From a virus, in the IMG/VR virus record IMGVR_UViG_3300008114_000027, positions 1-63,973 of that record: a stretch of 63,973 nt of DNA, one strand, 5' to 3'. Made by a program: the position numbers and the translations under genes. This document shows positions 1,950 to 5,287 of this stretch, piece by piece; the first letter of the stretch is position 1, and every line of letters begins with the position of its first letter. Below the pieces are notes generated by a model that did no database searches, was not told where the DNA came from, and was given only the letters and a program-made list of their open reading frames with translations.

Positions 1950-2245
1950 TGAAAAATCCATTGGAAAAGTACGCGCGACTTGACAGCGCAACAGGCAAGG
2001 GTATGAACGAGGGCTTCTGCGTCAACGACGGCGAGGCTTACTTTGCCGAGCGCGAAGACCTTATCGCTTACCTGAGAGCGCGCAATGTCGACGAGTACAA
2101 CATACTCTCGGACGACTTCATACTCGACGAGGCTTACGAACTCGAAGACTACTACTACACCGAATGGGAGGTCGAAGATGAGGACACCTACTACATTGAG
2201 GTCAACGGCGAGTGGCTAGAGGTCATCAACGCAAAGGTTAACTGA
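1949..2245 (+). CDS. Highly acidic small protein
   Basis: 98 aa. Start at 1949 overlaps the previous stop (TGATG). The C-terminal half is extremely rich in Asp, Glu and Tyr (about residues 55-90), the composition of DNA-mimic proteins that block DNA-binding enzymes; that role is a guess. Its stop codon TGA (2243-2245) lies inside the CUGAUGA catalytic core of hammerhead 1, so terminating ribosomes would sit on the ribozyme. Confidence 0.65.
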   Translation: MKNPLEKYARLDSATGKGMNEGFCVNDGEAYFAEREDLIAYLRARNVDEYNILSDDFILDEAYELEDYYYTEWEVEDEDTYYIEVNGEWLEVINAKVN

Positions 2246-2285
2246 TGAGGCTTGAGTAGCCGAAACGCCGCGAGGCGTCTTAACC
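2236..2285 (+). ncRNA. Hammerhead ribozyme 1 (type I)
   Basis: Stem I GGUUAA (2236-2241) with UUAACC (2280-2285); core CUGAUGA (2242-2248); stem II GGCU/AGCC around UGAGU (2249-2261); GAA (2262-2264); A2265 pairs U2278; stem III CGCC/GGCG with GCGA loop (2266-2277); cleavage expected after C2279. All invariant hammerhead core positions are present and the RNA is open at stem I, the type I arrangement. The next gene starts at 2303, so cleavage would leave a 5' leader of 23 nt beginning UUAACC. Confidence 0.93.
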
Positions 2286-2302
2286 AATCAATAAATTTTA
2301 TC

Positions 2303-2773
2303 ATGAAAGCAAACGCAACACGCATGACTGCTGAGGCAGTTAAACAACACAGCAAACGTGGGTACAATCCTCCACTATGGGAAGAGACAGTTGACCGCTA
2401 CCTGAAGTATGACAAGGTCGAGTTCTACCTGCTAGACCGCGACAAGCACAAGTCATACGATGAGTTCTTTGTCATCTACACCTTGCCTAGCGGCTTGAGG
2501 CTCATGGGCAGCCTTTCCTACAGTTCATCACTGACAAGCGCAGGCTTTTACGAGCTAAACTTGTTAGACCACGACATGGACGCGCTTATCGAGGATGTGC
2601 TAGCAGGCAAGCCCGTAGACATGAAGGACTACCTGTTCGACACTGACAGGGTGCTGCTGCAATCCCGCACAGACGTGACCTATAAAACGACGCCCGAGGC
2701 GCGTGACTACATGACTGAAGGCAGCACTAGGTTCGGCTTCATATTCACCAAGCAATACATTCACACAGCCTAG
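2303..2773 (+). CDS. Hypothetical protein downstream of hammerhead 1
   Basis: 156 aa, not recognised. The ATG at 2303 is preferred over an in-frame upstream start at 2252 that would lie inside the hammerhead, because the A/U leader before 2303 matches those of the other hammerhead-downstream genes. Basic helical N-terminus (residues 1-35), then beta-rich Tyr/Ser/Gly-containing middle and Asp-rich tail. No membrane segment. Followed by hairpin 4. Confidence 0.62.
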   Translation: MKANATRMTAEAVKQHSKRGYNPPLWEETVDRYLKYDKVEFYLLDRDKHKSYDEFFVIYTLPSGLRLMGSLSYSSSLTSAGFYELNLLDHDMDALIEDVLAGKPVDMKDYLFDTDRVLLQSRTDVTYKTTPEARDYMTEGSTRFGFIFTKQYIHTA

Positions 2774-2780
2774 TACAACA

Positions 2781-2806
2781 AGCCCCGCCGCGTAAAGCGT
2801 GCGGGG
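2781..2806 (+). terminator. GC hairpin 4
   Basis: AGCCCCGC (2781-2788), upper stem CGC/GCG around GTAAA, one unpaired T (2800), then GCGGGG (2801-2806) followed by ATTTGTGGGTACAAATC. The GUGGG in the tail could also pair with CCCGC of the 5' arm, so an alternative fold exists. Confidence 0.68.
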
Positions 2807-2831
2807 ATTTGTGGGTACAAATCAAAATACA

Positions 2832-3017
2832 ATGACAAAAATCATCATGCTCTTTTGCCTGTTCACCGGAAAGGTTCAGCAGGTCGACAACCTCTACACC
2901 GTGCACGCCGGCACCGGCACCTACGAGTATGCCTGCGAGGGCGAGGTACTCCATTGGATAGAGACAGGGACATTCAACTACGACGACAGCCTGTGCGGCT
3001 GCGGCGAACTTAACTAA
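2832..3017 (+). CDS. Small hypothetical protein, hydrophobic N-terminus
   Basis: 61 aa. Start at 2832 follows the hairpin-4 leader. The N-terminus (residues 2-13) is hydrophobic and may be a short signal or membrane anchor; the rest is rich in Tyr, Gly and Glu with Cys at the centre and a CGCG pair near the end, suggesting disulfides or a metal site. Not recognised. Confidence 0.5.
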   Translation: MTKIIMLFCLFTGKVQQVDNLYTVHAGTGTYEYACEGEVLHWIETGTFNYDDSLCGCGELN

Positions 3018-3037
3018 TCAAATCAAATCAAATCACC

Positions 3038-3166
3038 ATGAAAAAAGTAATCATTTTAGCAATCATCATCATCGCGCTCGCGTCATGCAGCACCAAGAAA
3101 CTTACACACTCACACTACACCAAGGGGGTAACGCACGGGCAGGACGGCTGCGCGTGGCACCGATAG
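3038..3166 (+). CDS. Small lipoprotein
   Basis: 42 aa. Basic MKK start, hydrophobic core of Ile/Leu/Ala and an LASC lipobox (Cys at residue 16) followed by Ser-Thr-Lys-Lys, a textbook lipoprotein signal. Mature part is about 27 residues with His and one more Cys. The stop TAG (3164-3166) shares its G with stem I of hammerhead 2. Phage lipoproteins of this size often serve in superinfection exclusion; that is inference from family behaviour. Confidence 0.65.
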   Translation: MKKVIILAIIIIALASCSTKKLTHSHYTKGVTHGQDGCAWHR

Positions 3167-3223
3167 GTTAACTGATGAGGTCTGAGTGACCGAAACCTAG
3201 GGCTCGCGCTCTAGGTCTTAACC
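3166..3223 (+). ncRNA. Hammerhead ribozyme 2 (type I)
   Basis: Stem I GGUUAA (3166-3171)/UUAACC (3218-3223); core CUGAUGA (3172-3178); stem II GGUC/GACC with UGAGU loop (3179-3191); GAA 3192-3194; A3195-U3216; stem III of 8 bp, CCUAGGGC/GCUCUAGG with one G-U and a UCGC loop (3196-3215); cleavage after C3217. Compared with copy 1 both stem II and stem III sequences differ with pairing kept. The next ATG is at 3241. Confidence 0.93.
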
Positions 3224-3240
3224 AAATAAATAATTTTATC

Positions 3241-3414
3241 ATGACAACTTACTTCATCTGCAACACAGACAGCTACGGGCAAAGAACAGGCACCTACCGC
3301 TCCATTCAAATAAGCGAAGCCGATATAGAAACTAATCACCATGGATGGAAATTCTACAACGGCATGTTTCTTTACGAGAGCGAGCACCAAGTCATACTAG
3401 CCTGCCAAGATTAA
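3241..3414 (+). CDS. Hypothetical protein between hammerheads 2 and 3
   Basis: 57 aa, not recognised. Starts after the A/U leader left by hammerhead-2 cleavage and ends with TAA at 3412-3414, one base before stem I of hammerhead 3, so the gene is exactly framed by two ribozymes. If both cut, it would become a separate mRNA of about 240 nt. Aromatic, soluble, two Cys. Confidence 0.6.
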   Translation: MTTYFICNTDSYGQRTGTYRSIQISEADIETNHHGWKFYNGMFLYESEHQVILACQD

Positions 3415-3464
3415 GGTTAACTGATGAGTCCTGAATGGACGAAACGTCGTGAGACGTCTTAACC
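3415..3464 (+). ncRNA. Hammerhead ribozyme 3 (type I)
   Basis: Stem I GGUUAA (3415-3420)/UUAACC (3459-3464); core CUGAUGA (3421-3427); stem II GUCC/GGAC with UGAAU loop (3428-3440); GAA 3441-3443; A3444-U3457; stem III CGUC/GACG with GUGA loop (3445-3456); cleavage after C3458. Compensatory changes in stems II and III relative to copies 1 and 2, identical stem I and core. The next ATG is at 3482. Confidence 0.93.
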
Positions 3465-3481
3465 AATTAAATAATTTTATC

Positions 3482-3856
3482 ATGAGCAAAACAACGCGCG
3501 CTATCGGACAGCGCAATTCATTCACCAAGGCTTCAGAGCCTGCACCATTCAAAGTTAACCGCTTCGAGGTAGCTAGACTAGTCAAAGCACAAACCGACGC
3601 GATAACAAGCGGCGTATGGGACTACCCAATGGATTATAAATTCGCCAACAGCGGCGAGTTATGGGACGCAGTCAACGCAGGCAAGAGCGTGCAAAAGTTC
3701 GTGCGAGAGTGCATGATTGAGTTCGGCACGATTACAGGCGCCCTGCTAGGGAGTCAATTCAACCACGTGTCGCACAGCAGCAAGCACGCCATTCGCAAGG
3801 GCGTCATGAGAGCACAGCAGTACAAACAAATCATCGAACAATTAAAAACAAAGTAA
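3482..3856 (+). CDS. Hypothetical protein downstream of hammerhead 3
   Basis: 124 aa, not recognised. ATG at 3482 follows the leader that is identical to that of the gene at 1462; the in-frame start at 3449 lies inside the ribozyme and is rejected. Basic, Ser/Thr-rich N-terminus, helical middle and a Lys/Gln-rich C-terminal helix. Two bases separate its stop from the next ATG, so the pair is probably co-translated. Confidence 0.62.
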   Translation: MSKTTRAIGQRNSFTKASEPAPFKVNRFEVARLVKAQTDAITSGVWDYPMDYKFANSGELWDAVNAGKSVQKFVRECMIEFGTITGALLGSQFNHVSHSSKHAIRKGVMRAQQYKQIIEQLKTK

Positions 3857-3858
3857 CC

Positions 3859-4227
3859 ATGGGATTCTTCAGTTGGAAAACATCGGACACGGACAAGTCC
3901 ATCAGCAACGCATACAGCAAGAGAGGTGCGTTCAAAGTTTATATGATAACACCTACAGACAGGTACCTAGAACAGGAGTACGAGGGCTACGGGGTATTCG
4001 GTGGCAAGGACTACTACGAGCTAGTGTACGAGCTAAACAAGTGCAGGTACCATGGTCCTGAGGACGTGGAAGACAGGTCCAAGGGGATAAGGATAGCCTT
4101 CGAAAAAAACAACAAGGGCAATCTAGTCCTGCCAAAGTTTGCCGAGAGCGAAGACGCTTCGTGGTTGGAGCTACCTGATAGCAGGATATGCGAACAGCAA
4201 GGATACTTTTACCAATCAATAATATAA
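3859..4227 (+). CDS. Conserved phage protein, GFFSWKTSDT N-terminus
   Basis: 122 aa. The opening MGFFSWKTSDT-x-K-SISN is a pattern I recall from small conserved phage proteins of unknown function that occur in many tailed phages. Tyr- and Gly-rich middle (residues 40-60) and an acidic-Trp segment near 100. Tight spacing after the preceding gene indicates one transcript; hairpin 5 follows 10 nt after the stop. Function unknown. Confidence 0.65.
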   Translation: MGFFSWKTSDTDKSISNAYSKRGAFKVYMITPTDRYLEQEYEGYGVFGGKDYYELVYELNKCRYHGPEDVEDRSKGIRIAFEKNNKGNLVLPKFAESEDASWLELPDSRICEQQGYFYQSII

Positions 4228-4237
4228 AACAGGACCA

Positions 4238-4264
4238 AGCCCCGCCACTGCAAAGTGCGCGGGG
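4238..4264 (+). terminator. GC hairpin 5
   Basis: AGCCCCGC (4238-4245), upper CAC/GTG stem, one unpaired C (4258), then GCGGGG (4259-4264) followed by ATTTGGCGGTAGAAAC. The tail GGCGG is fully complementary to CCGCC in the 5' arm, so a second fold can form. Confidence 0.68.
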
Positions 4265-5201: not shown

Positions 5202-5223
5202 TATTAGTTTGGTTACACCATCG

Positions 5224-5248
5224 CCTCGCCATCCTTCGGGAGGCGGGG
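5224..5248 (+). terminator. GC hairpin 6 (UUCG tetraloop)
   Basis: CCTCGCC (5224-5230) pairs with GGCGGGG (5242-5248), a bulged A at 5231, then TCC-TTCG-GGA. CACCA just before and UGGUG just after can extend the helix. TTTT then GGTGGTAGAAAG follows, matching the conserved tail of the other five. Confidence 0.7.
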
Positions 5249-5287
5249 TTTTGGTGGTAGAAAGTCATAATAAAACATAAACACAAC

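Follow-up and report, generated by a model that had tools for sequence, protein, structure and literature searches.

Type I hammerhead ribozymes that probably cut early phage transcripts between consecutive genes

The virus record IMGVR_UViG_3300008114_000027 carries three type I hammerhead ribozymes on its + strand, and it is probable, judging from the sequence, that all three are active in cis and cut an early polycistronic phage transcript between its genes. The window analyzed here is that record at its full length (63,973 bases, positions 1 to 63,973), and the ribozymes, which we call HH1, HH2 and HH3, lie at 2236 to 2285, 3166 to 3223 and 3415 to 3464, with predicted cleavage between 2279 and 2280, 3217 and 3218, and 3458 and 3459, respectively. 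A preliminary description of this DNA had proposed these positions, the stems and the cleavage-site residues C2279, C3217 and C3458, all of which were confirmed. Each copy has the hammerhead core (C3UGANGA9 ... G12AA14, the A15.1-U16.1 pair and H17 at the cleavage site) in the form CTGATGA...GAA, together with a 6-bp stem I (GGTTAA/TTAACC) and a 4-bp stem II. The lengths first given for stem III, 4, 8 and 4 bp, omit the A15.1-U16.1 pair and become 5, 9 and 5 bp when it is counted, HH2 having the longer stem. Both the minimum-free-energy and the centroid folds of HH1, HH2 and HH3 are the hammerhead, in the type I topology, with the RNA ends in stem I and loops closing stems II and III. As had been noticed at the outset, stems II and III change from copy to copy with pairing retained, and the same was found for stem II at orthologous junctions of relatives, which retain the ribozyme despite altered stem sequences.

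A covariance model (R1) built from 32 hammerheads, including HH1 and HH3 and without HH2, finds exactly these three copies in the window and no other (E=4.6e-20 for HH1 and E=2.1e-20 for HH3, both in the training set; E=1.1e-14 for HH2, outside it). Type II and type III hammerheads were searched for in the window as well, and none was found there. The helices of the fold are supported by covariation in the 32-sequence alignment, in searches with free stems and at orthologous sites. Because the members of the 32-sequence set were chosen for pairing, so that its covariation table is biased, two scans that left stems I and III free, described below, are the fairer evidence. By itself, a loose core pattern is weak evidence for HH1 to HH3; it matches three times in the window against 0.46 expected, and three matches were reached in 4 of 100 shuffles. 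The same three hammerheads, with the same spacing of 930 and 249 nt, occur in a second IMG/VR record, IMGVR_UViG_3300008266_000090, which makes an assembly artefact unlikely; the two records may represent the same or nearly the same phage. We regard it as almost certain that HH1 to HH3 cut themselves.

Many small + strand genes lie within the first 10 kb of the window, and the ribozymes stand between some of them. Gene E (98 aa, 1949 to 2245) has its TGA stop within the CTGATGA core of HH1, and gene F (156 aa, 2303 to 2773), for which Pfam, PHROGs and PADLOC gave no family match, follows on the 3' side. Gene H (42 aa, 3038 to 3166) lies 5' of HH2 and has its last base in common with it; gene I (57 aa, 3241 to 3414) is bordered by HH2 on its 5' side and by HH3, which its stop adjoins, on its 3' side; gene J (124 aa, 3482 to 3856) lies 3' of HH3, and gene K is an open reading frame (MGFFSWK...) at 3859 to 4227. 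Predicted cleavage leaves exactly 23 nt before the downstream ATG in all three cases, namely an AT-rich leader at 2280 to 2302 for the mRNA of gene F (-0.8 kcal/mol when folded with the gene start), one at 3218 to 3240 for gene I (MFE 0 kcal/mol) and one at 3459 to 3481 for gene J (MFE -1 kcal/mol). Searches of the genes around the ribozymes against Pfam, PHROGs and PADLOC yielded no named function, barring a weak lipoprotein signal in gene H (PF08139, E=7.6e-4) and a sub-threshold match for gene A. Gene K has 133 relatives in viral contigs, some of them from contigs of more than 300 kb, and no family name was found for it in Pfam or PHROGs.

The - strand of the window encodes a terminase, a portal protein and a replicative primase-helicase. 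Since the terminase shows distant similarity (~26% identity) to terminases of Flavobacterium and Cellulophaga phages, the host probably belongs to Bacteroidota, an assignment based on this distant protein similarity and on a promoter-like sequence. The latter, at 321 to 353 on the + strand upstream of the early genes, was scored against the Bacteroidota promoter consensus (TTTG, TAnnTTTG); it has the TTTG and then TAnnTTTG with one mismatch, and is the sole + strand match in the first 9 kb. At the nucleotide level, the early region had no match among cultured phages. Where the early genes begin there is also a conserved structured RNA, at 470 to 590 in the window, 1373 to 1490 in L318 and 3704 to 3820 in L074 (relatives carry L numbers throughout). 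It has a T-arm-like hairpin (GGTGG TTCGANY CCACC) and a closing stem TAGCTA/TAGCTA. One hairpin of this RNA shows compensatory changes, and the RNA ends right before a TAACCAA leader resembling those left by the hammerheads; ARAGORN made no tRNA or tmRNA call for it, and Rfam made no call.

Scans of IMG/VR with three patterns containing real cores returned at least 119, at least 119 and at least 120 stretches, against 0 and 1 for scrambled cores; the counts are lower bounds in which related sequences are counted separately. The pattern GTTAACTGATGA...GAAAC...GTCTTAAC accounted for at least 119 stretches, and its scrambled-core version for none. A second pattern specified the core and some of stem-loop II but nothing of stems I and III; among the non-redundant matches listed, 123 of 126 were complete hammerheads, and stem I was exactly 6 bp in 121. 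A third scan used the core variant CTGACGA, for which the scrambled-core control gave one match, and 107 of the 115 usable matches listed were complete, all 107 with a 6-bp stem I and A/A flanks. In addition, a structural finder applied to the first sets reported at least 300 hammerheads, and none in reversed sequences. The traits of this phage subclass are an open stem I that is almost always 6 bp long, flanking A's and a UNANU loop II. The preliminary description had considered three hammerheads in 1.2 kb to be unusual, which does not hold within this phage group, as 30 whole records (chosen partly for multiple copies) carry from one to nine each, up to nine of them in a few kb. On the reverse strand of L320 there are six or seven, each followed by a AAAAGTNAGGNGCANACTATAACAGGC-like sequence and then by the next gene.

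The covariation extends to a tertiary contact. Among the matches listed, 278 unique sequences have a stem-loop II of 13 nt. In these, the base that ends loop II and the seventh nucleotide after the cleavage site (position 7) vary together: U occurs with A in 247, and the loop base is A in all 14 cases in which position 7 is U, the remaining pairs being 15 with A as the last loop II base (13 with G and 2 with A) and two G-G. The 14 A-U sequences come from eight loci, several of them related, and represent fewer independent events. The same rule holds for 107 of 107 sequences of the CTGACGA set, for which the search pattern had specified the loop base. In crystal structures, the last base of loop II forms a Hoogsteen pair with the U next to residue 1.6 (PMC2553840), and the position of this contact has been described likewise in another study (PMC9217987). 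Position 7 is this known site of the hammerhead tertiary contact, which presumably forms in the phage subclass as well. The phage subclass resembles the Schistosoma and sTRSV hammerheads (PMC2553840) in that the last loop II base would contact the nucleotide next to residue 1.6. However, the partners in the latter are usually A in the loop and U on the stem I side, whereas those in the phage subclass are mostly U and A, with A-U in the 14 sequences only; moreover, the phage stem I is without loop or bulge, unlike that of Schistosoma and sTRSV. The covariation of loop and flank offers a test, set up by nature, of the hammerhead tertiary contact with the usual A and U swapped.

The position of the ribozymes relative to genes is equally regular. 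Among the matches listed, 298 hammerheads had enough downstream sequence, and in 264 of them the predicted cleavage site lies 10 to 40 nt 5' of an ATG opening a frame of at least 25 codons; the chance level is 21% both at random same-strand positions and at gene ends. Copies with stem I GRTTAA or AGTTAA have a median distance of 22 nt to the ATG and almost never a Shine-Dalgarno-like motif in the leader, while the other stem I types have a median of 27 nt and such a motif in 37% (strict) to 57% (loose). Among the matches listed, 275 copies have an upstream frame that terminates close to the ribozyme, and its stop codon ends between 3 nt before and 13 nt after the ribozyme start in 226 of them. 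Since upstream stop codons overlap the ribozyme, ribosomes could unfold it before the cut. Furthermore, none of 73 loci with several copies among the matches listed has them on mixed strands, nor does any of 99 in the later CTGACGA set. According to the preliminary description, the position of these type I ribozymes is such that a single transcript would be cut between one gene and the next. We consider this the best reading, as it agrees with their topology, core, stems, covariation, placement and strand bias.

Under this reading, the early polycistronic phage RNA would be cut between genes by HH1, HH2 and HH3 during its synthesis, and the contact of position 7 with the last base of loop II would stabilize the active fold. 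Hammerhead cleavage generates a 5'-OH and a 2',3'-cyclic phosphate. The downstream gene would gain a defined 5' leader (23 nt in the window) that starts with the 5'-OH and holds the ribosome-binding region, and the upstream mRNA would retain stems II and III at its 3' end together with the cyclic phosphate. The gain might be separate mRNA units, whose stability and translation would be independent of their neighbors. Cleavage in vivo is what we infer from a fold, a covariation, a placement and a strand bias that are seen in the sequence. In Prevotella bryantii, a hairpin 21 nt 5' of the start caused no drop in translation, and structure over the binding region caused a strong one (PMC3155529). 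The spacing between hammerhead and ATG fits this observation, but could equally reflect room for the ribosome or a need of cleavage itself.

Other hammerhead types bear on the role of the leader. There are 22 type III candidates among the loci listed and none in reversed controls; at least two of them (L066 and L147) seem to overlap type I copies by chance. Type III hammerheads are also present in the phages elemoA and HTVC019P, as found with a separate script, and three type II candidates were seen (L166, L187 and L220). Several type III copies lie just before starts and on the same strand as type I, as in L233 (2208 to 2256), L033 (12932 to 12984), L187, L195 and, on the minus strand, L322. 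After a type III cut, the bulk of the ribozyme stays attached to the downstream RNA, so that the production of a short clean leader does not suffice as an explanation. Since such copies are also found just before starts, the distance to the ATG could reflect space for the ribosome rather than the making of a leader. Intergenic cutting is the common denominator of type I and type III.

The junctions themselves vary among relatives. Repeated GC-rich hairpins lie as separators on the + strand of the window before gene B (973 to 999), gene C (1402 to 1430), gene D (1759 to 1786) and gene G (2783 to 2806) and after gene K (4240 to 4264), and a further one lies between genes at 5223 to 5249. The hairpins of the window are followed by a TTTGNNGGTANAAAC-like sequence, and several such junctions hold hammerheads in relatives. 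The orthologue of gene B is preceded by a hammerhead in L318 and by a GC hairpin in L074, that of gene D by a hammerhead in L074 and that of gene G by a hammerhead in L318. Gene I has a hammerhead on its 5' side in the window, where L318 has a hairpin. A hammerhead precedes gene J in the window as well as in L318, but no element does so in L231. For gene K there is a hammerhead in L074 (L231 and L238 being the same contig) and nothing in the window, and the other inspected relatives of gene K have no hammerhead directly upstream. As most orthologues of gene K are without a ribozyme, the element is not required by this gene. In L233, just 5' of gene J (start 3001), the hammerhead at the HH3 site has one mismatch in stem II and is possibly an inactivated natural variant. 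A fixed attachment to a particular gene was rejected, given that the orthologues of genes B, D, G, I, J and K differ in having a hammerhead, a hairpin or neither. Because the same gene can be preceded by different elements, neither hammerhead nor hairpin belongs to a particular gene, and at a given junction one seems able to replace the other.

This exchange of elements leaves some room, although we are doubtful, for the alternative that the ribozymes mainly make the 3' end of the upstream mRNA, in place of a terminator or protective hairpin, with the leader as a by-product, which would be compatible with self-cleavage. In keeping with it, relatives have a GC hairpin in place of the hammerhead at several of these junctions, a hammerhead lies 3' of genes E, H and I in L318 as well as in the window, and upstream stops adjoin or overlap the ribozyme. 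However, the tight spacing to the downstream ATG would then be unnecessary, and the upstream RNA would keep little of the ribozyme after a type III cut. Also, the GC hairpins have weak U-tracts and were mostly unflagged as + strand terminators in a terminator scan, which does not support them as ordinary terminators. It is tempting to extend intergenic cutting to a general scheme, which we offer tentatively, in which many phages would free each early gene or short block as a separate mRNA by means of intergenic elements that can replace one another. Such an element might be a hammerhead of type I, II or III, the conserved GC hairpin (as a processing site, a terminator or an undescribed ribozyme) or the tRNA-like structure at the operon start, and every one of them would be followed by a similar short unstructured leader.

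It is unlikely that self-cleavage acts as a brake, by which the cut RNA would be degraded and the expression of the separated genes lowered or timed. Although 5'-OH and 2',3'-cyclic phosphate ends alter RNase access, and nearby genes manage without the element, the cut falls mostly 5' of the ribosome-binding region and leaves the frame intact, and degradation alone could be achieved by a cut at any site. We find it quite unlikely, too, that the repeats are boundaries at the DNA level for the shuffling of small genes by recombination, with RNA cleavage being secondary. The gene order around the hammerheads does differ among the window, L318, L231 and L233, and stem I, core and leader are near-identical among copies. 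Nevertheless, stems II and III differ among copies with pairing kept and loop II covaries with the flank, which argues for selection on the folded RNA and not on DNA homology. Finally, that the elements are non-functional relics or chance resemblances is extremely improbable. In its favor, Rfam reports none at curated thresholds and L233 has its stem II mismatch, but the scrambled-core and reversed-sequence controls were almost empty, and covariation and fixed geometry are found across hundreds of copies.

The Rfam hammerhead I model, a check suggested in the preliminary description, reported nothing in the window at its gathering threshold, and in E-value mode it matched HH3 with 29.5 bits (E=3.6e-4; gathering 34). 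The window copies are like RF00163 (Hammerhead_1) in type I topology, core and 4-bp stem II; however, all of them score below its curated threshold of at least 34 bits, 29.5 bits being the best. We take this shortfall to lie with the model and not with the ribozyme. In 14 loci, the R1 model finds 72 hammerheads at E <= 0.001, and Rfam release 15 at gathering thresholds reports 0 of the 72, so that, in the loci sampled, standard annotation has a gap where this subclass is concerned. Because Rfam at standard thresholds misses the subclass in these records, routine annotation would overlook it. In a collection of 84,980 species genomes, only two contigs matched a GTTAAC-type pattern, both from metagenome-assembled genomes, and among 299 genomes from the phylum of one of these contigs the model matches two, including the starting genome. 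Whereas viral contigs have many members of the subclass, the bacterial genomes sampled seem to have few, the search across all genomes having covered the GTTAAC-type stem I. One model match each was obtained in Agrobacterium phage OLIVR1, Flavobacterium phage elemoA_7-9A and the Pelagibacter phages HTVC019P, HTVC131P and Jormungand.

Clusters of hammerheads and the idea of transcript processing have been known since 2011, when Perreault et al. showed that clustered hammerheads of prophages flank single genes or short blocks and proposed that they cut long phage transcripts; a triple arrangement from Agrobacterium was active in vitro and in E. coli (PMC3088659). The window likewise has several close hammerheads flanking consecutive phage genes, whereas its subclass differs in being a sequence-defined type I group at a narrow distance from the start codon. 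The HHphage hammerhead of haloviruses HF1 and HF2 lies 13 nt 5' of a start, and a transcript 5' end is related to its cleavage site (PMC3088659). It is similar in standing shortly 5' of a start codon, but it differs in being a single variant copy, in archaeal viruses, that has been discussed as a salt-responsive element. In the open-access literature, we found no description of this subclass, most subscription papers, preprints and supplementary datasets lying outside the scope of the search. The subclass and its geometry extend the proposal of Perreault and colleagues (PMC3088659).

The role of hammerheads in prokaryotes and phages has been described as an open question (PMC6155905). The hundreds of copies of one architecture just before starts make a clear prediction about mRNA ends, and the presence of members in sequenced phages with recorded hosts (elemoA, HTVC019P and OLIVR1) renders their function testable. 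Since the relatives number in the hundreds and nearly all lie just before a gene start, our results suggest that these phages slice a long message into single-gene messages by means of these ribozymes.
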